45,029 nucleotides of DNA from assembly GCA_020720045.1 (NCBI GenBank), contig DYPH01000027.1, positions 1-45,029 on the forward strand, given 5' to 3'. Under the pieces are notes generated by a model. That model was not told the origin of the DNA. It did not search any database and saw only the letters and a program-made list of their open reading frames with translations. This DNA comes from Sorangium cellulosum (lineage in GTDB: Bacteria > Myxococcota_A > Polyangia > Polyangiales > Polyangiaceae). The translations under genes were made by a program, and so were the position numbers. Of the stretch, positions 4,290-40,485 are shown in pieces. Positions within the stretch are counted from its first letter, which is position 1. Each line of letters opens with the position of its first letter.

Positions 4290-7200
4290 ATGAATGAACC
4301 GCTGTTTGCGTCTCGCCCTGCCCCTGCACCATCCGTCGTGCCGCCCGCCGTTCCCTTCGAGCGGAAGAATCCCGGCCTCGTGGAAGGGGCGGTGGTTCGC
4401 GTGCGACGCCGCACGTGGGCGGTCACGAAGGTCACCAAGGAGCACTCCACCTACGACCTCCGTGTGAGCCTCGTCGCCCTCGACGACGATGCGCGCGGCG
4501 AGACCCTGGATGTTCTCTGGGATCGCGAGCTGGATGCCGTCGTTCAAACGTCGCTTACAAACGGTGAACGGGGCGTCCAGGAAGACGGAGGTACGCGCGG
4601 CTTCGATTCCGCAAGTGCCTTTGCCGCCTACCTGTCCGCGCTCGGATGGAATCAGATCGCGGCCGCCGATCCGCAGCGCTTCCTCGCCCCGTTTCGCGCG
4701 GGAATTCAAGTCCATGCCTACCAGCTCGCGCCGCTCCAGCGCGCGCTCCGCCTCCCGCGGGTTAACCTGTTTATTGCCGACGACGTCGGTCTCGGAAAGA
4801 CCATTGAAGCCGGTCTGATCATTCGCGAACTGATGCTCCGCGAGCGCGTCCGTCGCGTGATTGTCGTCTGCCCACCTTCGGTGCTCCGCCAGTGGCGCGA
4901 CGAACTGTTTCAACGCTTCGGTCTCCGCTTCACCATCTACGATCGCGAGCACATTGTTCGCGTCCGGCGGTCCCGCGGGCACGGCGCCAGCCCCTTCAGC
5001 ACCGGGCGCCTGTTCCTCGTGAGCACTCCGCTCCTTCGCGACGACGACCACCGGGCGGCGCTGACCGATTTCGTGAAGAACGATGATGACTTGCCGCTGG
5101 AGGATCAGGAGCCGGCGCTCCTCGTCGTCGACGAAGCCCACCACGCCGCGCCGTCCCACGGGAGCCGCTACCCGGTCGACTCGGCAACGACGCGCGCCGT
5201 GCGCGAACTTTCCGCATTGTTTGAACATCGCCTTTTTCTCTCGGCGACGCCCCACAACGGCCACACCGCGAGCTTCAGCGCGCTCCTCGAAATGGTCGAT
5301 CCGCAGCGCTTTGTTCGCGGAATTGCGCCAGAAAAAGCGGCACTTGACGCCATTGTCGTCCGTCGTCTCAAAGAAGATCTGCGCCTGCTCAAACAGAACT
5401 TCCCCGAGCGGCACGTCGTCGCGACCGTGCTTGGAGGGACCGCCCTGGAAGCGGGCCCGCGGTCTCTCGCGACGCCGCCCCCAGCAAATTCGCTGGCGGT
5501 CGCGAACGGACGGGCCCCCAGCGAGTACCCCGAGCTCCACCTCGCGGCGCTCCTCGCCCGTTACCGAGATGCCGTCCTTGGGCGCATCGAGGCGGGGGGC
5601 GCCAAGAAGCGCGATCTCCTCGCCGCGACGCTCGTCCTCTCCGGCCTCCAGAAGCGCCTGTTCTCGAGCGTCGAGGCCTTCGCACGGACCCTCGCCGTCC
5701 ACCAAAAGTCCCGAATTTCAAACGCGAAAGCGAAGTACGTTTCGCTCCCCCGCCTCTTGCCGAACCTGACCGCCGCGGAACCGGACACGGACGCGGAGCC
5801 GGACAGCGACGGTCTCGACGCCCTCGACGACGCGGCGGCGCTCCTTTCCGGGGCGGTCGCGACGGCGGCGCCGGTCGCCGGGGAAGAGGCGCTCCTCGGC
5901 GAAATGCAGGCGCTCGCAGCGACCCTTCGCCACCAGCCCGACGCCCGCGTGCGCGCCCTCGCGGCGCTGTTGCGTCCGCGGCTTCTCGCCGGGAAGAAGC
6001 GTTTCTTGATCTTCACCGAGTACACCGACTCGGAGCGCTACCTCGTCCGTCAATTGAAGGAACTCCTCGGGGACGTCCTCGATCCCGAGGGGATTGTCGG
6101 CTACCACGGAAGCCTCGGCGACGACCGCCGCGAAGCGCTCAAATCGGCCTTCAATGACGACCTAAGCGCAAACTCTTTGCGCATTCTCGTCGCCACCGAC
6201 GCGGCGCGCGAAGGGGTCAACCTCCAGGCGACCTGCGACGAGCTCTTCCACTTCGATCTCCCGTGGAACCCGGCGCGCCTCGAGCAACGCAACGGGCGCA
6301 TCGACCGTACCCTGCAACCCTCGAAAGAGGTCTTCTGCCACTATTTCCTCTACAAGAACCGCCCGGAAGATCGCATTCTTGATGCGCTTGTCGCCAAGAC
6401 CGAGCGTATCCGCAAGGAGCTCGGGAGCGTCGCGCCGGTCCTCGTCGACCGTGCCGCGAGCCGCCTCGACGCCGGCATCGACCGCAACGCCGTTGCCGCC
6501 CAGCTCGCCGCCCTCGAAGCCGATCTTTCCGAGGACGCGGCAGCGGCGCTCGGGAAGAATTCCGACGAGGATGCCCTTTTGAAGGGGGACCCCAGCGAGG
6601 ATGACCCGTCCTTCTCCACCTACGTGACGACGCCGCGCCTCGACCTCCAACGCCAGGAGGTGTTGCGGCAGGAAATGGACGATCTTCGCCAATTGATGGA
6701 TCGGGCCCGCCAGAGCCTGAACGTCTCCCCCGAGCTCTTTCGCGACGCGCTGAATGAGGCGCTCCTGCGGGTCGGCGGGGAACCGTTCGTCGCCGACCCG
6801 AAGGTGAAGGGCTCGTACCGGTTGTCGGCGGTCACCGAAAAGGCGCTCGGGTCGGCCGCCTTCTACGACGCCCTCGACACCTTGCGTGCCCCCCGAGAAC
6901 CGGGCGAAACCTTTGCCGAATACCGGCGGCGCTGCCCGGTCCGCCCCGTCGTCTTCCACGACACCGGGCGCCTCTCGGACCCCACCGTCCACCTCCACCT
7001 CGAGCACCCCTTCGCCCGGCGCCTCCTCGACCGCTTCCTCGCCGCCGGCCACGCGGAGCGCGATCTCGCCCGGCGGACCGTCGCGAGCTTCCCCGGGAGC
7101 GTGCCCCAGGTCGTCCTCTTCGGGCGCCTCCGCCTCTACGGACCAAACGGCGCGCGCCTCCACGACGAACTCCTCGCGGTACGTGCCACGCTCGCCGCCG

Positions 7201-11880: not shown

Positions 11881-11910
11881 TGCTGCTATCGCCTATGAGT
11901 GGAGGATCGG

Positions 11911-13578
11911 ATGATCGATATTGCTGACTACACCTACGATGAAAATTTGGACTATTTGGGCGGTGGCGGCTTCGCCGATGTCTATCGCGCCACGTACACG
12001 CCGACAGGAGAGCGCCGGGCGCTGAAAATCGCCCGCAAAGGCGAGGAGTCGCTTGCCCGAATTCGTCGTGAAATCAAGGTTCAAAGGAAGCTTCACCACG
12101 CCAATGTGATGGAGATCCTCGACTACGATCAGACCGATTTTCGATGGTTTGCGACGGTGGTCGCCGAGGGCTCTCTCTCGAAGATCGGCGACGTGCCGCT
12201 CCCCGAAGCCGAAGTCCTACGGCTCGCCGAAGAAATCCTTGGGGCACTCGGAGTCGCTCACCGCCGTGAGGACATCCACCGAGACATCTCCCCTGGGAAC
12301 ATCCTTCGGAGCGGAGGCCGGTGGCTACTCGCCGACTGGGGGTTCGTCGCGACTCCGGATTCCGTAGATCGCCTCACGCGCACCGGCACTGCGGGTGGAA
12401 CCTACGAATGGGCCGCCCCTGAAGTCCTGGTGGATGCCCACCGCGCAACGGCACCATCGGATCTTTACGCGCTCGGCAAGGTCCTTTGTTGGCTTCTCAC
12501 GCGTGAGGCACCGAGGCTAAAGCAAGATCCACAGCTCCCGATCCAACCTCATTGGGCCGAGTTTCTCGGGAAACTCGCGACGGAGGACCTGAAAGACCGT
12601 TACGGCTCGGCGGAGGAGGCGTTGCAAGCCCTCGCGAAGGTTGTTCCCCATGTGCCCTCGGCACCAGAGCGCTTTCGATTCCCTCACCAGCCGGCATCCA
12701 ACGCCCCGTCGAGCATTGCCGCGCGCGTGAAAGCAATGCTTCCACGTCCTGAAGACCGCATCAAGTTGAAAGACCTGATCAGCGCAGAGACAAGCGCGCT
12801 GTTAGAGAGCGTGACGGCACCACGTTTCGACGTTTCAAGACCAGAAACCTCCGAGGACTCTTACAAGCGCATCCTCGACTATTACGCACATTCCGAACCG
12901 ATGATGCACGTAATATTTAACGGGTTTTTCTACGGACATTCCGACCTCATCGACTTCACAAAATCAGTACTTAGGCTCGTGCCGAAGCAAGACATCGGCG
13001 GCTACACCCGACTGATTCGCCTCCGAGATACGCCGGCATTCTTATGCTTTTGTGCAGGAGCATTCGGCGCGGTCCTGAGTGAAGACTACCAGCGACTTAT
13101 TAGCCTATTTTTCGCTCCGTATTGGTCACCTGACGATGGTTCCAAGGAACCTCTCCCGGCACGCCTCAATGCAGACAGTGTCTTCGATCGGGACCTCTTG
13201 CGCCAAACAACTTCTTTCAATAGCCGAAAACTTCCTGCCAGCGATCTTCTTGTCGATCTCCTCCGCCCGCTTGTGCGTGTTCAAATGACGGATAGCGAGT
13301 ATGAAACGGCGTTTGACCGCTTTGAAGTAATGATGAGTTTATTCCTCATCGATGGAGGCCACGTCGGCTTTACGTCCGGGCGTTTCGCCTGGCGCGGCCC
13401 CTACGGTCCAGCGGCGTTGCTGCGCGGTCCCATCGCAGAAGTTCACGACGATTTCATGACGCAACGAGAGCTTTGGGGGCCGCTTCGAAGCGGCTTTTTC
13501 GACAGCAAGGTCGACCGCGCGGAAGCAGCGTTCGCGAAGCTCGTCGAGTACGCGACGCGCGTAGCAACGTCCCTATAG
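11911..13578 (+). CDS. Ser/Thr protein kinase embedded in the DISARM locus
   Basis: 555-residue Hanks-type kinase that is not a standard DISARM component. N-terminal kinase domain (about residues 8-270): glycine loop LGGGGFADVY, lysine in ALKIARK, catalytic loop IHRDISPGNIL (about 122), metal-binding loop ADWGF where most kinases have DFG (about 141), and WAAPEV (about 168). All catalytic residues (K, D, N, D) are present, so activity is likely. The C-terminal half (about 280-555) is not recognised and has lower GC. No membrane segment is visible, so the protein is probably cytosolic. ATG 11911 has a GGAGG five bases upstream; GTG 11899 in frame is less likely because it overlaps that site. 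It sits 30 nt after drmMI and is probably co-transcribed. Phosphorylation of DISARM proteins is inference only. Confidence 0.85.
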   Translation: MIDIADYTYDENLDYLGGGGFADVYRATYTPTGERRALKIARKGEESLARIRREIKVQRKLHHANVMEILDYDQTDFRWFATVVAEGSLSKIGDVPLPEAEVLRLAEEILGALGVAHRREDIHRDISPGNILRSGGRWLLADWGFVATPDSVDRLTRTGTAGGTYEWAAPEVLVDAHRATAPSDLYALGKVLCWLLTREAPRLKQDPQLPIQPHWAEFLGKLATEDLKDRYGSAEEALQALAKVVPHVPSAPERFRFPHQPASNAPSSIAARVKAMLPRPEDRIKLKDLISAETSALLESVTAPRFDVSRPETSEDSYKRILDYYAHSEPMMHVIFNGFFYGHSDLIDFTKSVLRLVPKQDIGGYTRLIRLRDTPAFLCFCAGAFGAVLSEDYQRLISLFFAPYWSPDDGSKEPLPARLNADSVFDRDLLRQTTSFNSRKLPASDLLVDLLRPLVRVQMTDSEYETAFDRFEVMMSLFLIDGGHVGFTSGRFAWRGPYGPAALLRGPIAEVHDDFMTQRELWGPLRSGFFDSKVDRAEAAFAKLVEYATRVATSL

Positions 13579-13685
13579 GCAGTGCGGCCTCCGTGCAGAG
13601 TGCACTTTCCACTAGGCAAGCGCGCGCCTTACCGGCGAGGTCGACGGGCCTCCGTAGCTGCGGCGCATCGAAGCAGCGACCTGCC

Positions 13686-13745
13686 GTAGTAAAGTAAAAC
13701 GCGTTTTTCTTTCCTACGGCCCCTCGGAAGGAAAGAAGTCTTTCA
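13686..13745. repeat. Left copy of ~60-bp direct repeat flanking fic
   Basis: Matches 14932-14991 in the same orientation with 6 mismatches in 60 (offset 1246). It ends at the base adjoining the fic stop codon (13746-13748, minus strand). It contains CTTTCCT at 13709-13715, AGGAAAG at 13729-13735 and a degenerate third half-site CTTTCAT at 13740-13746, which reaches into the stop codon. A perfect palindrome AAAACGCGTTTT lies at 13696-13707. Confidence 0.9.
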
Positions 13746-14927
13746 TTAGGTGGCGTCGAGAAGGTCCAGGTACCGGCGGTAGCGGAAGCGCCGGTTCTTC
13801 TTACGCCCCGTCGTTTCTTCAAGAATTCCCAGCGTTACGAGCCAATCGACCGCCTTGCCCGCGGTCGGCGAGGTGACTCCGAGCGCCGCGACGACCTGAG
13901 GGACCGTAAGCAGCGGCGCGCGGCCGAGGTGGTCGAGGAGGCGGAGGGCGACTCCGCCCGCGTTGGCCGTGTGAAGGGCACTTCGGTCGTCCCGGAAAAG
14001 CTGGGTCACTTTGGCGATAGTTTCGTCCGCCTTCGTCGCGACCGTCGCGACACCTTCGAGAAAGAAGGACAACCAAGACTCCCAATCCCCGGCGGTACGA
14101 ACCCGCTGAAGATGGTGGTAGTATTCGCTTTGATGCTGGCGAAAATAGAGACTGAGATACAGAAGCGGCGTCCGTAGGAGCTCGGCCTCTTTCAGCATGA
14201 ACACGATGAGAAGCCGCCCGACGCGACCGTTGCCATCGAGGAAGGGGTGGATGCTCTCAAACTGGACGTGGGCGACCGCCGCGCGAACGAGCGGGGATAG
14301 CGTGCTCGGCGGCAGGAGTTCATCATGCACGAATTTTTCGAGATTTGTCAGCAGCGGAGGCAGCTCGACAACCGGTGGGGGCACGTAGAACGCGAGCCCC
14401 GGCCGGGAGCCGCCGATCCAGTTCTGGGACGTTCGCACGGTCCCGGGCGCCTTGTCGGCGCCCCGCGTCCCCTCCACGATCTTTTCCTGAAGCTCCCCCA
14501 AGAGCCGCATACTCAATGGCAGTTTATCGAGGCGACTTACCCCATATTCGAGGGCGCGAACATAGTTGGAAACTTCGAGGACGTCAGACCCTTCAGGGAC
14601 CTCTTCGCTTGCCTCGTAAGAGAGCAGGTCGGAAAGGGAAGATTGCGTCCCCTCAATCTGGCTAGAGAGGACGGCCTCCTTTCGAATGTGCATATGGAGG
14701 AACAGGTCTGGGTCGGGGAGGTAGCGACTGCACCCATCCAGGCGCCCGAGGGCGTGCAGCGCGCGCGCCTCCAGCGTCCGTAGCTCCCCCTCGACCAGGA
14801 TCGGCGGGTTCGGAGGCAGCATTGCCGGCACAAACGCTTGAAATTCCGAGTTCGTTCCTCGCAGCTCGCGAACGAGAGTCCCCGCGCGCGAAGGAACGGT
14901 GCGCACGCTCTGGAAGAGGTCGGTCAT
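13746..14927 (-). CDS. Fic-family AMPylase with C-terminal winged helix
   Basis: 393-residue Fic protein on the strand opposite to the surrounding defence genes. Fic enzymes transfer AMP (or another nucleotide) to hydroxyl groups of target proteins. The active-site motif HPFLDGNGRVGR (about residues 226-237) matches HPFx(D/E)GNGRxxR completely. An N-terminal SSQIEG (about 87-92) fits the (S/T)xxxE(G/N) inhibitory helix of class II Fic proteins, so the enzyme is probably autoinhibited. The C-terminus (about 325-393), LLTVPQVVAALGVTSPTAGKAVDWLVTLG onward, reads as a DNA-binding winged helix. ATG 14927 is the first start and opens directly into the conserved N-terminus. The gene is framed by a 60-bp direct repeat on both sides. 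A defence link is suggested by position only; it could be an independent toxin or regulator cassette. Confidence 0.9.
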   Translation of the reverse strand: MTDLFQSVRTVPSRAGTLVRELRGTNSEFQAFVPAMLPPNPPILVEGELRTLEARALHALGRLDGCSRYLPDPDLFLHMHIRKEAVLSSQIEGTQSSLSDLLSYEASEEVPEGSDVLEVSNYVRALEYGVSRLDKLPLSMRLLGELQEKIVEGTRGADKAPGTVRTSQNWIGGSRPGLAFYVPPPVVELPPLLTNLEKFVHDELLPPSTLSPLVRAAVAHVQFESIHPFLDGNGRVGRLLIVFMLKEAELLRTPLLYLSLYFRQHQSEYYHHLQRVRTAGDWESWLSFFLEGVATVATKADETIAKVTQLFRDDRSALHTANAGGVALRLLDHLGRAPLLTVPQVVAALGVTSPTAGKAVDWLVTLGILEETTGRKKNRRFRYRRYLDLLDAT

Positions 14928-14931
14928 CGCG

Positions 14932-14992
14932 GTAGTAAAGCAAATCGCGTTTTTCTTTCCTACGGTCGCTCGGAAGGAAAGAACTCTTTCCT
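14932..14992. promoter_or_regulatory. Right copy of fic-flanking repeat; candidate operator between fic and drmA
   Basis: Direct-repeat copy located 5 bp upstream of the fic start and about 90 bp upstream of drmA, in a divergent intergenic region (14928-15082). It carries three alternating half-sites: CTTTCCT (14955-14961), AGGAAAG (14975-14981) and CTTTCCT (14986-14992). The last two form a perfect inverted repeat with a 4-bp spacer. The 11-mer CTTTCCTACGG occurs twice here (14955 and 14986). This looks like a regulator-binding array, possibly bound by the Fic protein's own winged helix. I could not place -10/-35 boxes with confidence. Confidence 0.6.
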
Positions 14993-15082
14993 ACGGCGTC
15001 TGACCGGGGGCCGACTTTCTGACATTGCTTCGCCGTTCTTCTGCTTGCGCCACCGGCAAAACTCTCCGATTCTCGCGCCCTT

Positions 15083-18000
15083 ATGGTGCTGAAGACCCCG
15101 GCTGCCGTCCGCGATGCCCTCGATGATGCCCTCTACCTCGACCTGGTCGGCCCCCGCGCCGATGACGAAAACCTCGCGACCGAACAGATCGAAGGGGCCC
15201 CCTCGCGCTTCTACCTGACCGGGTTCCTCGTCCCGAGCGCGGCGCCCGACACCGTTCGCTACGAGGAGGATTCCGCCGATGCCGTCGACAGCACCGAGCA
15301 GGATCCCGAGGAGGGGGACGGCGTCGTCCGCGAACCGCCTCGCAATTACCTGCCGTCGTCGATCGGCTTCGTCACGCTCCTCGCCGACGGGGTGCGCCAT
15401 CTCTCCGTCACCGCCGTGTGGGGCGACTACGTGCCGGTCGCGACGACCGATGCCGGGGAGCCCGACGAAAACGGCCTCTGGCAGCGCACACCGCGGCGGA
15501 TCACCGTCCCCCTCGACCTCGGCACGGGGAATGCGCGGCCGAAGGCGATTTGTTTGGAAGATCATGGAGATGCCGGAACGCCCGGCATGAAGTTGAGCTG
15601 GGTCGCACGCACCACCGTCGACCCGAGCACCGGCGCGAAGGTGCGCGCCGTTTCCGTCTTCCTCGTGAACGAGCGCCCCCTCGACAGCGACAAGCTCGCC
15701 GATCGCGCGTTCGCCTTTCAAGTCGCCCTCCAGGCGACCTGCGCGGAGGGCTTTTTCCCGCGCAATGACTCCCGCGGCCGCGGCGGCGACGATTGGGATG
15801 CCGCCGTCGCCGACCTCCAGTTCGCCGACGTCGTCTCCTTCGCGACCGGCCTCGGAACAAGTGTAGAATGCACACGTACGTCGGGCGCGGACGGGAAGGT
15901 CGCCTGCACGTCGATCTCGACGACGGCGATGCCCCGCTACGAAGTCCCGAAGACGGAACCGAATTCCGAAATCCCCGGTGTTTTTGAGATGGAAGCGCTC
16001 GGCGACATCGCCCGTGACGCCCATGGCGGCGCTCCCCTCGCCGCGGCGCTCCAGCCGCTCGTGGCGAGTTACCGGGCCCACCTCGAGGGCCTCGCGGCGC
16101 AGCCTTCCGGCGATGGGAACGCCCGCTCGGCGGTACGCAAACAGCTCCTCCATCGCGGGAAGCGCGCCGCCGACCGCCTCGAAGCCGGCATCGCGCTGCT
16201 AGCCGGAAACGCCGACGCGCGACGCGCCTTTTCCCTCGCCAATCGGGCGATGGCCGCCGCCGCCCGGGCGCGCTCGCCGGAGCGCTACGCCAAGGCAGCG
16301 CCGACGTGGCGCCCGTTTCAATTGGCATTTTTTCTCCTGAATCTCTGCGGACTTGCCGACGAGGCCCATCCCGATCGCAGCGAAGTCGACCTGCTGTTTT
16401 TCCCGACCGGCGGCGGCAAGACGGAGGCCTACCTCGGCCTCGCCGCGTTCACACTCGTTCATCGGCGCCTCACCCACGCCGGGTACGCGGCCGGGGGGGT
16501 CGCCGTCCTGATGCGCTACACGCTCCGCCTCCTGACGCTCGACCAGCTCGGGCGCGCCCTCGGCCTCGCCTGCGCCCTCGAGCGGCTCCGTGAGGCGGAA
16601 AATCTCGGCCCGGTCCCCTTTGAAGTCGGGCTTTGGGTCGGCGGCGCAGCAACACCAAACCGCCTCGGCAAGGCGAACGACGGAAACGACGAGTCGGCCC
16701 TCGCGCGCACCCAGGCAGCTCGCGCGAGCGGCGATCCGAACCAGAAGCCGAAGCCGATCCCCCTCCATCAATGCCCCTGGTGCGGCGCAGAGATCGGGCA
16801 TCAATGTTTCTTTCTCGTCGGAAATCCCCGTGAACCGAGCGATTTGCGCGTGCGCTGTAGCTCGCTCACCTGCCCCTTTAGCAAGAATCTCGGGCTCCCG
16901 CTCGTCGCCGTCGACGACGTCGTCTACCGAACGCTCCCCGGCTTCGTGATCGCAACCGTCGATAAGTTCGCGAACTTACCCTGGATTGAGCAGGGCGGCA
17001 AGCTCTTCGGCCACGTCGACGCCTACCGCTCCGGCGTCGGTTACGTCCGAAACGACGAGTTTGGCCCGCTCCTCACCACCGACGTGCGCCTTGAGCAGGG
17101 GCTCCCACCGCCCGCATTGATTATTCAAGACGAGCTCCATCTGATTTCCGGCCCCCTCGGCTCGATGGTCGGCCTCTACGAGATCGCGATCGACGGTCTG
17201 GCGTCGCGCCCATCGGCGAGCGGCCGCAGCGTTCGCCCGAAGCTCATCGCCTCGACGGCGACCGTGCGTGCGGCTCAGGAGCAAATTCGCAAACTCTACA
17301 ACCGACAAGAGACGGCGATTTTCCCGCCCCCCCTCCCCGATCGAACAAACAGCTTTTTCGCCATCGAACGCCCCGTCGGCGATCCGCCCGGCCGCCGGTA
17401 CATCGGCCTCGCTGCCCCCGGACGCAGCATGAAGAAGGTGCTCCTTCGCGCCTACTTGGTGTTGCTCGCTGCCGGCGAGCGGGCCGCCCAAGATGGCGAA
17501 ATTCTTTCCAATGGGCGCTCCGTCGCCGACCCGTACTTGACGCTCGTCGGCTACTTCAGCTCGCTCCGCGAACTTGGGGGCAGCCGTCGCCTCGTCGAAG
17601 ATGAAGTCGCGACGCGCCTCTTGACCTACGCCTCGCGCGTCCACCGCGGCCGCGACCGCGCCGTCAGCAGCTTCGCCAATCGGGATTTGAACCCACCGGA
17701 TTTGGTCGAATTGACCAGCCGTCTCTCGACGGGGGAAGTCGCCAAAGCCAAAGGATCTCTCGAACTGCCCCACCCCTTCGCCGGCGGTCGCGGCGGCGCC
17801 AAACGGGGGAAGGCCAAGAAGGGGCACGCGCCGGTCGACGTCGCCCTCGCGACGAACATGATTTCCGTCGGGCTCGACATCGAACGGCTTGGATTACTTG
17901 TCACTTTCGGCCAGCCGAAGACGGCGAGCGAGTACATTCAAGCGACGAGCCGCGTCGGCCGAGATGCCCAGCGACCGGGCCTGGTGCTCACGCTCCTCAA

Positions 18001-18538
18001 CACGTTTCGACCGCGGGATCGCTCCCACTACGAAGGGTTCGCGACCTTCCACGAGAGCTTCTACCGAGCCGTCGAGGCGACGAGCGTGACCCCCTTCGCG
18101 CCCCGCGCCCTCGATCGTGGCCTCCTCGCCGTGTTCGTCGCCCTCGTGCGCCACAAGGCGACGGGACTCACGGCAACCGGCGCCGCCGGGAACATCCGCG
18201 CCTACAAGGGGGCTGCCGAGGCGGTCATTGAAGATCTTCTCGAGCGGGCGGCCGGCATCGAACCGAACCACGCCGCCGACGAAGCGCTCCGGACCGACCT
18301 CGAAAAGCGGCTCAAGAAACACCTCGACAACTGGCTCGCCGCCGCCGACAGCATCCACAACGATCACGGGAAAATGACCTACGACGGGAGCAACGGCGTC
18401 CCGCTTTTGGTCGATCCGCTTGCCGTCCGCGGAGAAACCCAGCCGGCCACGCTCCGCGACTTCACTGCAGGCCGCTCGCTACGCGACGTCGAGCCGAGCG
18501 TGAGCCTCCGCCTCGTCCCGAACGGAAAGAACGCCTGA
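15083..18538 (+). CDS. drmA: DISARM helicase-domain protein DrmA
   Basis: 1151-residue SF2-type helicase, core DISARM subunit that works with DrmB on phage DNA. Seen in the sequence: Walker A FFPTGGGKTEAY (about residue 440), Walker B-type IIQDELHL (about 682), motif III STATVRAAQ (about 728), motif V-like NMISVGLDIERL, and motif VI QATSRVGRD (about 953). A four-cysteine cluster CPWCG...RCSSLTC (about 563-597) probably binds zinc between the RecA motifs. Length and motif order fit DrmA. ATG 15083 opens the conserved VLKTPAAVRDAL start; no strong ribosome-binding site precedes it. The stop overlaps the drmB start (TGATG), so drmA-drmB-drmC are translationally coupled. Its promoter probably lies in 14928-15082, because fic points the other way. 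Confidence 0.93.
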   Translation: MVLKTPAAVRDALDDALYLDLVGPRADDENLATEQIEGAPSRFYLTGFLVPSAAPDTVRYEEDSADAVDSTEQDPEEGDGVVREPPRNYLPSSIGFVTLLADGVRHLSVTAVWGDYVPVATTDAGEPDENGLWQRTPRRITVPLDLGTGNARPKAICLEDHGDAGTPGMKLSWVARTTVDPSTGAKVRAVSVFLVNERPLDSDKLADRAFAFQVALQATCAEGFFPRNDSRGRGGDDWDAAVADLQFADVVSFATGLGTSVECTRTSGADGKVACTSISTTAMPRYEVPKTEPNSEIPGVFEMEALGDIARDAHGGAPLAAALQPLVASYRAHLEGLAAQPSGDGNARSAVRKQLLHRGKRAADRLEAGIALLAGNADARRAFSLANRAMAAAARARSPERYAKAAPTWRPFQLAFFLLNLCGLADEAHPDRSEVDLLFFPTGGGKTEAYLGLAAFTLVHRRLTHAGYAAGGVAVLMRYTLRLLTLDQLGRALGLACALERLREAENLGPVPFEVGLWVGGAATPNRLGKANDGNDESALARTQAARASGDPNQKPKPIPLHQCPWCGAEIGHQCFFLVGNPREPSDLRVRCSSLTCPFSKNLGLPLVAVDDVVYRTLPGFVIATVDKFANLPWIEQGGKLFGHVDAYRSGVGYVRNDEFGPLLTTDVRLEQGLPPPALIIQDELHLISGPLGSMVGLYEIAIDGLASRPSASGRSVRPKLIASTATVRAAQEQIRKLYNRQETAIFPPPLPDRTNSFFAIERPVGDPPGRRYIGLAAPGRSMKKVLLRAYLVLLAAGERAAQDGEILSNGRSVADPYLTLVGYFSSLRELGGSRRLVEDEVATRLLTYASRVHRGRDRAVSSFANRDLNPPDLVELTSRLSTGEVAKAKGSLELPHPFAGGRGGAKRGKAKKGHAPVDVALATNMISVGLDIERLGLLVTFGQPKTASEYIQATSRVGRDAQRPGLVLTLLNTFRPRDRSHYEGFATFHESFYRAVEATSVTPFAPRALDRGLLAVFVALVRHKATGLTATGAAGNIRAYKGAAEAVIEDLLERAAGIEPNHAADEALRTDLEKRLKKHLDNWLAAADSIHNDHGKMTYDGSNGVPLLVDPLAVRGETQPATLRDFTAGRSLRDVEPSVSLRLVPNGKNA

Positions 18539-21215: not shown

Positions 21216-21361
21216 CGAGGAGGCGGTGAGGAAACGGCGAGCCGCGAACTAACCGCGTGTCCGCCCGGAACCGCCGAAGGCGGTGAGGAAACGGCGCGCA
21301 TGAAGTAACCGCGCATCGTGCTTGTTTCCCAACCGATTCCCGGCTTCTAATCCCGGCCCAC
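21216..21361. repeat. Two-unit tandem repeat (57-bp period) between drmC and a kinase gene
   Basis: The 18-mer starting GGCGGTGAGGAAACGGCG occurs at 21222-21239 and 21279-21296. The trailing parts GAACTAACCGC and GAAGTAACCGC also match, giving two units with a 57-bp period. The 38 bp at 21259-21296 match 10-47 at the window's left edge with one difference. The hairpin ACCGCC-GAA-GGCGGT is present in the second unit. No gene is seen in this gap. The element could act as a REP-like mRNA end or a recombination site. Confidence 0.8.
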
Positions 21362-24300
21362 GTGCTCCCTGGACGCCTATTCGCCCACTACGAGGTGATC
21401 GCCCGCCTCGGCGAAGGCGGCATGGGGACCGTGTATGCGGCGCGCGACCTCCGCCTCGAACGGAAAGTGGCACTGAAGGTGCTCGCCGCGCGCGAAGATG
21501 TCTCCTTTGAAGACAAAGAGACGTTTAAGCAACGGCTGCGGCGCGAAGCCCAACATGCGGCCCAACTCAACTCGCCGAACATCGTGGCCGTGTTTGATGT
21601 GGGCGAGGTCGATGATGAGGTCTACGTCGCCTTCGAATACGTGGAAGGTCGGACGCTTCGCGCTCTGCTCCGCGATCCCGATTTCGTCGCCGAGCAGCGC
21701 CTCGCGACGGTCATCGACGTCGCGAGGGCGCTCGCCTACGCCCACGATCAAAAGGTCATTCACCGGGACATCAAACCGGAAAACGTGATGGTTCGGCCCG
21801 ACGGACTCGTGAAGGTCCTCGACTTCGGGATCGCCCGTCGCGCGCGCAGCGAAGACGACCACCCGCCGGAGCCGCACCACCGCGGGGAGCACCTCGGCGC
21901 CTTCGCGACGCCCTACACGCCCGGAACCTCCCCCACCGAGGACGGCCAGCGGGTAGCCGGGACGCCCAATTATATGGCCCCCGAGCAGATCCAGGGGCAC
22001 CCGCCGAGCGGCGCTGGCGATCAGTTCTCCTGGGGGGTCCTCGCGTGGGAGCTGCTGGCGGGGGCGCGCCCCTTCCGCGATGCCCGCGATCTCATCGATG
22101 CGCTCCAAATTACAAAGGATCCGCCGGTCGGCCTCCGCCTGGAACCGCCATTCCTGAGCGACGATCCCGGCGACGATGAGGCGCGCGTCGCCGCGATGGA
22201 ACCGGTCCTCGTCCGTGCCCTCTGCTGCGATCCCGGGCGTCGGTTCGCCTCGATGCACGAGGTCGTCGATGCGCTCGTGCCGACGTTGCGCCTGCGTCGG
22301 AGCGGCGAGCGTTCGGAAAGAGACCGTATTTCTTCGCATTCCCTCCCGGTCGAGCATGCGGCGACGACTCCGATGCAGAATGCACCGGTCCCGTACACGC
22401 CACGCGGAGACGCGGCGAAACCGGTCCAGATCGTCCCCCACGGCGAGGAACCGGCGGAACCGCTCGCGGCGACCCACCGTGCCGCGCCACCGGCGGTCTC
22501 CCTTTCGCCGCGCCAGGCGGTTTCCCAACCGCCAACGAGCCGACGCAGCGACGATCGCCTTCGCAAGGAAGAGGCCGAAACCACCCAAGGGGACGACCTG
22601 CCGTTCGCGCTTCCGACGCCGAAACGGAGCAAGCGTGCGCTCGCGATCGTCCTCTTGGCCCTCGCGCTTTTTGGATCACTTACAACGATTGTTCTTCTTG
22701 CACGACGTAAGCCTATTGTCATTGAGCGCCCCATCGCTCGACCGACGATCGCCGTCGAAGGGCCGGTCGCAGAAGCGGTTCGCGAAGGGAATGCCCGTTT
22801 TCGAGACGGCGCAACCGACCGTGCCCGCGAGAGCTTTCATAGGGCGATCGCGATCGATCCGGATGCTCCGGATGCCCACCTCGCGCTTGCAATGCTCGAA
22901 CTCGACCGCGGCGATCACGCCGACGGCGATCGCGACGAAGCGGAGGCGATCACCCATTTTGAGAAGGCCTTCGAAGCGCGCGACGTCCTCCCGGCAGCGA
23001 CAAAGAGCGCCGACGGAATTGCGTTGGTGGAGGCGCTGGAACCGCGCCTCCGGCCCCACCCGGATTTCGTCGAGTGGGAGGCGCGCCTGCTCCGTTTGAG
23101 CGTCAAATATTCGAACGATCCTCGGCTCTTTTACTGGCTCGGCGAGGCCCGCCGCGCCGACTTCGACGACGCCGGTGCCAAGACCGCCTTCGACCTCGCC
23201 CTCGCCCTCGACCCGCGTTTTTTGCCGGCGCTCGCGGGCCGCGCACGTGCGTCGCTCGCCCTCGGCGAAAGCACCCTCGCGAACGAAGACCTCACACGGT
23301 GCCTTCAAGCGTCGCCGATCGCGACCGATTGTGTCGCCGTCCGCTACGAAATGGCCCGCGATGCTGGCGAGTGCGCACGGGCCCGCGACGAGGCAAATCG
23401 CTGGGTCGGCGCGCGCCCGAACGACGCCGAAAGCAACCTCGCCCTCGCCGAAGCGCTCGTCGCGACCGGCGCCTCCCGCGACGCCCTTGGGCCGGTCCTC
23501 GCGCGCGCCTATCCTCCGGCAAATGCTGCCAATTCTGCCGGAGAGACGGCAGGAGCCGAACGGAGCGACCAAGACCTCGACATCTCCCTCGCCCTCCTCG
23601 AGGGGCGTGGCGACGACGCCTTCAAAGCGGCGGTCGCCCGGGCCGAAGCGATCCCGAACAATGCCGATATCTCCGTGCACGCCGCAGCGACCCTTCGCGC
23701 CGCCCGCATCGGACTCGACGCCGGGAAGACAACAGAAGCAGCGGATCTTGCTGAAGGATTTCTGCGAAAGGCCCCCGGTCTCGTCCGCCGGGACGCCGCC
23801 GCCGACCCAACCATCGTGTTTGATGCGATCCTGCTGCGTGTCGGGCGCATCGATCGAGCCGCCTTTGACGATCGTCGCGATCGGTGGCTCGTCGCCCAGA
23901 GCCAGGCCGGGACGGCCGCCGCCCGGGGCCGCTCCGGCGATGGGACCAAGGGGGCGCCGCTTCAGGCGTCGACGGCAGGCGGCGCGGATGCCTCGTCGCG
24001 CGCGCTCCGGTGGATGCTCGCCTACGCGGAGCCGGCCGTCACGCCGACCGATGCACGAAATGCACTTGCGATTCTCCCTGAGTACCTGCCGCTGCCACCG
24101 GTGACGCGGCGCTCGGCGCGCTTCGATCTCGCCGTCGGGCGCGTCCACCTTCTCGCCGGAAAGGCGCGCGAGGCGATCCCCTACTTGGACCACGCCGCCA
24201 CGAGCTGTGACACGCTGGCCGACCCGCTCCGCCACTTCGAAGCCCAGCTCGCCTACGGAAAAGCGCTGGAAGCAAGCGGAGATGCGGTCGACGCGAAGAC

Positions 24301-24424
24301 CGCCTACGAAAAGCTCCTTTCGAGCGCCGCCCGCCCAAGCGCGACGACGACGAGCACGAGCGCCGTCTTCACGGAAGCGGCCAACCGCCTGCGCCGCGTC
24401 GCCGCATCGACGGGCAATCGCTAG
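21362..24424 (+). CDS. Receptor-type Ser/Thr protein kinase with TPR region
   Basis: 1020-residue Hanks-type kinase. Kinase domain (about 7-300): LGEGGMGTVY (about 17), VALKVL lysine, catalytic loop VIHRDIKPENVM (about 133), LDFGIA (about 153), and the activation-segment end GTPNYMAPEQ. The activation loop is long and Ser/Thr/His-rich (about 160-200). A proline-rich juxtamembrane stretch leads to one membrane segment, ALAIVLLALALFGSLTTIVLL (about 423-448), then a TPR-like helical region to the C-terminus with repeats such as 'ARESFHRAIAIDPDAPDAHLALAMLEL'. Topology places the TPR part outside the cytoplasm. The start is a GTG without a clear ribosome-binding site. This architecture is frequent in myxobacteria. 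A zinc-ribbon gene follows 42 nt downstream, possibly in the same transcript. Confidence 0.9.
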   Translation: MLPGRLFAHYEVIARLGEGGMGTVYAARDLRLERKVALKVLAAREDVSFEDKETFKQRLRREAQHAAQLNSPNIVAVFDVGEVDDEVYVAFEYVEGRTLRALLRDPDFVAEQRLATVIDVARALAYAHDQKVIHRDIKPENVMVRPDGLVKVLDFGIARRARSEDDHPPEPHHRGEHLGAFATPYTPGTSPTEDGQRVAGTPNYMAPEQIQGHPPSGAGDQFSWGVLAWELLAGARPFRDARDLIDALQITKDPPVGLRLEPPFLSDDPGDDEARVAAMEPVLVRALCCDPGRRFASMHEVVDALVPTLRLRRSGERSERDRISSHSLPVEHAATTPMQNAPVPYTPRGDAAKPVQIVPHGEEPAEPLAATHRAAPPAVSLSPRQAVSQPPTSRRSDDRLRKEEAETTQGDDLPFALPTPKRSKRALAIVLLALALFGSLTTIVLLARRKPIVIERPIARPTIAVEGPVAEAVREGNARFRDGATDRARESFHRAIAIDPDAPDAHLALAMLELDRGDHADGDRDEAEAITHFEKAFEARDVLPAATKSADGIALVEALEPRLRPHPDFVEWEARLLRLSVKYSNDPRLFYWLGEARRADFDDAGAKTAFDLALALDPRFLPALAGRARASLALGESTLANEDLTRCLQASPIATDCVAVRYEMARDAGECARARDEANRWVGARPNDAESNLALAEALVATGASRDALGPVLARAYPPANAANSAGETAGAERSDQDLDISLALLEGRGDDAFKAAVARAEAIPNNADISVHAAATLRAARIGLDAGKTTEAADLAEGFLRKAPGLVRRDAAADPTIVFDAILLRVGRIDRAAFDDRRDRWLVAQSQAGTAAARGRSGDGTKGAPLQASTAGGADASSRALRWMLAYAEPAVTPTDARNALAILPEYLPLPPVTRRSARFDLAVGRVHLLAGKAREAIPYLDHAATSCDTLADPLRHFEAQLAYGKALEASGDAVDAKTAYEKLLSSAARPSATTTSTSAVFTEAANRLRRVAASTGNR

Positions 24425-40390: not shown

Positions 40391-40485
40391 GGGAACGCCG
40401 AAGCTAGCGAAATCTCGCGGGAACGGACAACTGTTCGTCCCGGCAGGTACATCGGTCCTCGCCGTTTCCTCAGCGCCAGCTGCGT

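Follow-up and report, generated by a model that had tools for sequence, protein, structure and literature searches.

The fic locus and its 62-bp direct repeat

The window analysed here is a stretch of 45,029 nucleotides from Sorangium cellulosum (contig DYPH01000027.1, positions 1 to 45,029; genome size 6.34 Mb). It carries a DISARM operon in the order drmD, drmMI, a protein kinase gene (11899–13578, forward strand), then drmA (15083–18538, forward strand), drmB, drmC and a second protein kinase gene with TPR repeats (21362–24424), a gene set that we take to be class 1. Set into this operon on the opposite strand, between the first kinase gene and drmA, is a SoFic-type fic gene (13746–14927, reverse strand) encoding a protein of 393 amino acids. 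Its product combines the Pfam domains Fic_N (95 bits) and Fic (61.6 bits), as in SoFic-type proteins, and the Fic motif HPFxDGNGRxGR is present as HPFLDGNGRVGR at residues 227–238, as placed by alignment. SoFic was the top PADLOC family (E = 2e-113) as well as the top fold match. The C-terminal winged helix that had been ascribed to Fic by the first-pass annotation was confirmed by an AlphaFold2 model, which places it at residues 325–391 (13755–13955, reverse strand; mean pLDDT 88.2), and by a Pfam MarR_2 match of 27.2 bits (cut-off 27).

The divergent region between fic and drmA contains a 62-bp sequence (14929–14990, reverse strand), the putative operator array, of which a second copy in direct orientation lies at the 3′ end of fic (13683–13744, reverse strand). 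The two copies are 90% identical and flank the fic ORF at a distance of one base from its start and stop codons. Three CTTTCCT half-sites of alternating orientation had been noted in the right copy, and all of them are in the sequence, at 14955 (+), 14975 (−) and 14986 (+), as are the perfect inverted repeat AGGAAAG-AACT-CTTTCCT with its 4-bp spacer and, in the left copy, the same layout at 13709 (+) and 13729 (−) with a decayed third site. These three heptamers are real but form only part of the structure: the half-sites extend over 9–11 bp (CCGTAGGAAAG/CTTTCCTACGG) and are four in number, the fourth, GGTAGTAAAG, being located at 14931–14940. Across the window as a whole, the heptamer CTTTCCT alone shows no enrichment (8 occurrences versus 5.13 expected; 13 shuffles reach 8), but five of the eight occurrences sit in the two clusters.

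The four alternating half-sites upstream of fic make up two dyads spaced 31 bp apart, namely a 9-N4-9 dyad, GTAGGAAAG-AGTT-CTTTCCTTC, at position −67 relative to the fic ATG (14973–14994, reverse strand), and a 9-N14-9 dyad, GTAGGAAAG-N14-CTTTACTAC, at −36 (14932–14963, reverse strand). In the left copy, the arms of the N14 dyad are kept (13686–13717, reverse strand), and the outer arm of the N4 dyad, which overlaps the fic stop codon, is decayed (13727–13748, reverse strand). Differences between the copies affect 1 of 39 half-site positions, as marked by the analyst, versus 5 of 23 other positions (Fisher p = 0.023).

To score such arrays without regard to their sequence, we used a motif-blind test that asks for two dyads (N4 or N14) 31 bp apart and for repetition of the left arm. 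The upstream region of the present fic gene scored 25, a value reached by none of 200 dinucleotide shuffles; with spacer 4 alone and a different scoring, p was only 0.086. A search of the genome with the dyad pattern returned five matches at three dyads, all at the fic locus, and none with the reversed pattern. Likewise, the 62-bp repeat has only its two copies in this genome at E ≤ 0.001, and a match was obtained in 1 of 193 relatives, namely the genome itself, by which a mobile repeat family was rejected. The viral contigs yielded no exact match to the repeat pattern.

Phased arrays recur upstream of other fic genes

A single-query Fic search of genome contigs recovered only four loci, with 23–37% identity. 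Fic genes for comparison were collected from 50 of the 193 relatives (E ≤ 1e-40, own genome included), from 98 of 377 genomes of the wider phylum (E ≤ 1e-45; own genome included, and overlapping with the former set), from plasmids (213 records at E ≤ 1e-30, of which 12 were taken and 11 analysed) and from viral contigs (80 loci kept out of 142). Phage records contained three distant Fic homologues, and no E. coli copies of two of the fic genes were found. The resulting 207 Fic loci included 200 with proteins of at least 330 amino acids; removal of proteins with > 90% identity left 156, of which 155 had a usable upstream region.

At p ≤ 0.02, the motif-blind test detected an array in 66 of these 155 non-redundant fic upstream regions, compared with 2 of 155 coding windows; the remaining 89 upstream regions did not reach this threshold. 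The spacing was strongly preferred: 37 loci scored ≥ 20 at a period of 31, as opposed to 0–3 loci at ten other periods (24 to 38), and 15 loci did so at a period of 41, i.e. one turn longer. Fifty-five of the 66 arrays are of the N4-N4 type, and eight, including the present one, are N4-N14. Counting either an array or a near-perfect N4 or N14 dyad, 96 of 155 upstream regions were positive and 59 had neither; for dyads alone, the baseline was approximately 7 in shuffles and 12 of 155 in coding windows. Thus, palindromic sites recur in fic promoter regions, the present one included, but not in that of every fic gene.

Many of the arrays consist of 22-bp dyads of the form CTAGTAAAG-N4-CTTTCCTAG that follow each other in steps of 31 bp (occasionally 32 bp), with a maximum of five consecutive dyads. 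In the fic upstream sequences (13.9 kb), 80 sites of the CTAGTAAAG class were counted, as opposed to 9 in 184 kb elsewhere in the same loci, with a scoring derived from the very loci that were then counted. When spacers of 0–15 and periods of 20–45 were scanned in the upstream regions of 28 Fic proteins with an [ST]KP recognition helix, spacer 4/period 31 was the top cell (mean 18.09 versus 13.07 in shuffled sequences). Loci whose Fic does not belong to the KP class gave no peak at this position when pooled, and four of them (L083, L084, L086 and L104) peaked there individually. Half-sites differ between such loci: L104, on a Citrobacter plasmid, has the same layout with the half-site TTATTAAAG, L083 carries GTGAAGC-GATC-GCTTCAC, and related words are found in L084. 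In the Rhizobiales locus L101, the half-site is TTAATTAAG, and an N4 dyad is followed by an N14 dyad in the same order as in the present array.

Single near-perfect dyads were over-represented at many spacings, and N4 and N14 were not special in this respect. After removal of nested dyads, N14 dyads occurred in 19 of 155 upstream regions (3.6 in shuffles), N8 in 32, N4 in 29 and N0 in 26. An over-representation of N14 dyads in their own right was rejected, as a later control found other spacings to be equally frequent. Since dyads are common at many spacings, the argument is carried by the phased array rather than by the N14 dyad as such; the N14 site upstream of the present fic gene rests on its 31-bp register, the similarity of its half-sites and the seven other N4-N14 arrays.

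Half-site sequence covaries with the recognition helix of Fic

In the predicted structure, the recognition helix comprises residues 353–365 and begins at S353 of an S-P-T sequence; the helix thus starts with the variable residue X of [ST]XP. Across the 66 arrays, distances between half-sites correlated with distances between recognition helices (Mantel r = 0.545). The correlation persisted when distances of the Fic domain (partial r = 0.352, p = 0.0005) or of the rest of the winged helix (partial r = 0.303, p = 0.0005) were taken into account, and these two regions retained partial correlations of their own (0.236, p = 0.0055, and 0.251, p = 0.0015 respectively). Without four loci judged dubious by eye (L092, L094, L168 and L221), the values were r = 0.569 and partial r = 0.492 for the helix, −0.015 for the Fic domain and 0.214 for the rest of the winged helix.

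Where X is K, F, H, Q or T, 40 of 45 loci have T as base 5 of the half-site, versus 3 of 21 loci with A, S, R, P or Y (Fisher p = 4.8e-9, an optimistic value, because the residues were grouped after the class consensuses had been seen). The present Fic protein has S353 as X and, matching this rule, G as base 5 in three of the four arms. In an ungrouped comparison of 495 residue/base pairs, the X column ranked second (with base 4) and fifth (with base 5). The top pair was wing residue 373 with base 9, the base that covaries most with residues of the wing rather than with the start of the helix. Half-site sequence thus depends on the recognition helix of Fic in a correlative sense; as the loci share common ancestry, the association is no proof.

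The covariation also bears on whether the repeat might act as RNA, i.e. as a hairpin, terminator or attenuator. Both copies fold somewhat better than shuffled sequences on both strands (z = −1.75 to −2.15). No terminator-like site was found there, however, and a fixed 31-bp phase together with covariation with a protein helix fits DNA binding, so that a role at the RNA level appears highly improbable.

Attribution of the array to fic and not to DISARM

From its location between the divergent genes, the array had also been proposed to exert shared control over DISARM, but nothing beyond this position spoke for it. None of 27 related drmA upstream regions contained CTAGTAAAG-class sites, and there was no fic gene beside drmA in 29 drmA loci of relatives (flanks of up to 1.5 kb). 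Together, this argues that the array belongs to fic and not to DISARM. As 86 bp separate the right array from the start of drmA, it may nonetheless contribute to DISARM control in this genome alone. The same-genus genome G001 has a drmA gene of 99% identity on a contig that ends inside drmA, before the fic side.

A candidate promoter within the array

The sequence TTGAC is present in 36 of the 66 arrays, versus 9% of shuffles, and 30 of its 40 occurrences share one phase (14), which falls within a dyad's right arm. In the related arrays, a consensus AAGAAT follows 17 nt downstream of TTGAC, in the next dyad. With the −35 and −10 elements placed in two successive dyads, the former in a right arm, occupancy by Fic would cover both, and repression is predicted. 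The corresponding boxes of the present fic gene, placed by homology to TTGAC-N17-AAGAAT, would be TTTCCT (14980–14975) and AAGAAA (14957–14952), again with 17 nt between them and inside the two dyads; they constitute a weak candidate promoter (14952–14980, reverse strand) which a consensus scan does not find. No σ70-like promoter was found in the fic–drmA divergent region.

Proposed autoregulation by Fic

We consider the array most likely to be the operator through which Fic represses its own gene, and would put the probability of this reading at roughly 70%. The computation directly shows the array, the distances within it, its recurrence in front of fic genes and its covariation with the recognition helix; binding by Fic is what we infer from them. 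The idea that Fic regulates itself through its winged helix, raised by the first-pass annotation, is well supported by comparison, given the recurrent arrays, the varied neighbours and the helix covariation, with the act of binding being the deduced part. As to the neighbours, the first 65 loci were compared, mostly with ≤ 1.5 kb of flank each, and no flanking ORF family of at least 60 amino acids occurred in more than two of them.

In the proposed mechanism, Fic, a SoFic-type AMPylase, would bind the array as a dimer via its C-terminal winged helices, one for each 9-bp half-site. A period of 31 bp corresponds to approximately three helical turns, which would place adjacent dimers on one face of the DNA, where they could bind cooperatively. 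Occupancy by Fic would block RNA polymerase and so hold a toxic enzyme at a low level by negative autoregulation, and repression might be released during phage infection. More tentatively, the SoFic family of anti-phage AMPylases as a whole may be self-repressing transcription factors, whose dimers line up along 31-bp-phased arrays and whose specificity follows a code between the first helix residue and bases 4–5. By analogy with a related Fic enzyme whose activity is induced by DNA, the Fic molecules resident on the operator could double as a poised sensor that links promoter occupancy to AMPylation.

Arrays away from fic

A sequence model was built from the upstream regions of 23 other members of the class, with the present locus excluded. 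In the S. cellulosum genome, with scoring of 30 out of 1196 first-look candidates, it reported nothing at E ≤ 0.1 other than the two copies of the repeat (4.8e-4 and 0.0027). Applied to the 193 relatives, it recovered these two copies, 26 other fic contigs, among them those of the 23 loci used for training, as well as 17 places on contigs that had no fic hit. Three of the latter carry fic fragments and 14 have no fic. By the rough E-values of this model, the 14 fic-less places were obtained at E ≤ 0.1, where approximately 19 chance matches are expected, and seven of them at E ≤ 1e-3, where 0.2 are expected; in the genomes of these seven, the fic gene is of another class or none was found. The array is thus not exclusive to fic loci, and the seven places indicate either that several regulators use this DNA word or that a single one acts on it in trans.

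The second of these possibilities would have a winged-helix regulator encoded elsewhere bind the arrays and control fic together with other stress or toxin–antitoxin genes. Besides the 14 places away from any fic, seven of them at E ≤ 1e-3, such a regulator would fit locus L140. There, 8 bp separate the array from a gene whose product weakly matches a Crp-like HTH (18.4 bits, cut-off 27), and the next gene is nucleotidyltransferase-like, resembling by eye the NTP_transf_8 gene of L149. The genome studied here, however, has no other array; the half-site sequence tracks the recognition helix of Fic itself; and within one host family (f5), arrays of unlike sequence occur, those of L020, L022 and L035 differing from that of L084. 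On balance, we regard control by a regulator in trans as unlikely and retain Fic as the probable ligand of its own array.

Several of the places away from fic deserve mention in their own right. The fic-type arrays of L140 (G071:C36) and L149 (G046:C449) lie near nucleotidyltransferase-type genes, an arrangement reminiscent of type IV toxin–antitoxin pairs. The HTH protein of L140 has no BLASTP similarity to Fic. At L141 (G005:C3), an array without fic is found near an isochorismatase gene. At L147 (G089:C9), an array precedes a fic match that spans residues 268–392 only, which suggests that the operator may outlive its fic gene.

The left copy of the repeat

With the left copy, the operator is present a second time at the 3′ end of fic, for which simple autoregulation offers no explanation. 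This copy may have been left behind by a duplication or by the insertion of a cassette, or it may serve looping as a second operator. Among 153 fic downstream windows, two passed at p ≤ 0.01, one being the present locus and the other a weak array in L168, 29 bases after the stop codon; in addition, L017 has a degenerate array on the 3′ side of fic. Candidate remnants of fic beyond the left repeat were not convincing (best E = 0.042).

If fic were a mobile cassette, the 62-bp repeat could be its scar or recombination site, and the palindromes would serve integration instead of regulation. The position of the copies one base from the start and stop codons and the lack of fic at the 29 drmA loci of relatives are in keeping with this, as is the L018 locus, where fic and its operator lie between unrelated 92-bp direct repeats (1334–1425 and 2803–2894; 83% identical). 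We nevertheless consider a cassette decidedly unlikely, because arrays elsewhere lie upstream of fic, apart from the degenerate 3′ array of L017, with only those 2 of 153 downstream windows passing, and because the differences between the two copies spare the half-sites.

This same preferential retention of half-sites in two near-identical arrays would be expected if Fic bound both copies, 1246 bp apart, and looped the DNA across fic, with the right array, placed between the divergent starts, also tuning drmABC. A clear double array is, however, seen only at the present locus, the 3′ array of L017 being degenerate, and the drmA upstream regions of relatives are devoid of sites (0 of 27). Looping with tuning of drmABC therefore seems rather unlikely, and repression of fic from the upstream array is the reading we prefer.

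Relation to known Fic proteins

Self-repression by a Fic protein is known already. Passages of PMC9755527 describe CccR, a Fic-HTH protein of Yersinia pseudotuberculosis that represses itself via a palindrome near the −35 element with a 10-N26-10 layout, for which the dimer is needed. CccR and the present protein both consist of a Fic domain with a C-terminal HTH. They differ in that CccR has one site with 10-bp arms and a 26-bp spacer, as opposed to several sites with 9-bp arms, spacers of 4 and 14 bp and a period of 31; CccR is also, according to the same passages, a secreted effector with low identity to SO_4266. Near-perfect N26 dyads with 9-bp arms occurred in 8 of 155 upstream regions (4.7 in shuffles). 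What is new here is the multi-site, helically phased array, its association with the SoFic branch and the apparent recognition code.

SoFic of Shewanella oneidensis (SO_4266; PDB 3eqx, 3zcn and 3zec) has the same architecture as the present Fic protein, and we know of no operator for it. Our search of the open-access literature found no paper describing a SoFic operator, although others may exist. According to passages of PMC10628234, SoFic had not been demonstrated to bind DNA as of 2023. The same paper deals with Coxiella CbFic2, which has a DNA-binding winged helix; by the paper's title, DNA binding induces its activity. CbFic2 is thus, like the present protein, a Fic enzyme with a winged helix; it differs in that it was tested on random DNA sequences, with no operator, and its fold similarity to the present Fic is lower. 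In passages of a 2026 AMPylation review (PMC12894286), SoFic is not named.

EcSofic/AS1 is a Sofic defence AMPylase that, in passages of PMC12249575, is controlled by a small antitoxin together with its C-terminal domain, which sets it apart from the present system; the words winged, DNA-binding and transcription are absent from that text. Its authors suggest that leaky expression is toxic, which would provide a reason for tight control. Feedback repression encoded in the promoter would explain how bacteria tolerate such a toxic defence enzyme. The present analysis supplies operator sequences, a spacing rule and a prediction of specificity for dozens of homologues, and thereby reduces the question of DNA binding by SoFic to a gel-shift.

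Other repeats and Fic-like sequences

Three further features were observed at this locus and in this genome. An approximately 72-bp dispersed repeat lies inside a defence gene, the drmD ORF (window positions 5443–5519), whose reading frame is open across it; it has 61 matches in the genome, the drmD one included, several of which follow each other in tandem every ~75 bp, and the same-genus genome has 59. On both sides of the DISARM operon, at 10–51 and 21259–21300, there is a 42-bp repeat (95% identity), with further copies at 21222–21256 and, inverted, at 40443–40477. Finally, the genome contains two extra Fic-like matches, one on the same contig just past the end of the window (C304:46954–47502) and one at C319:4591–5328.
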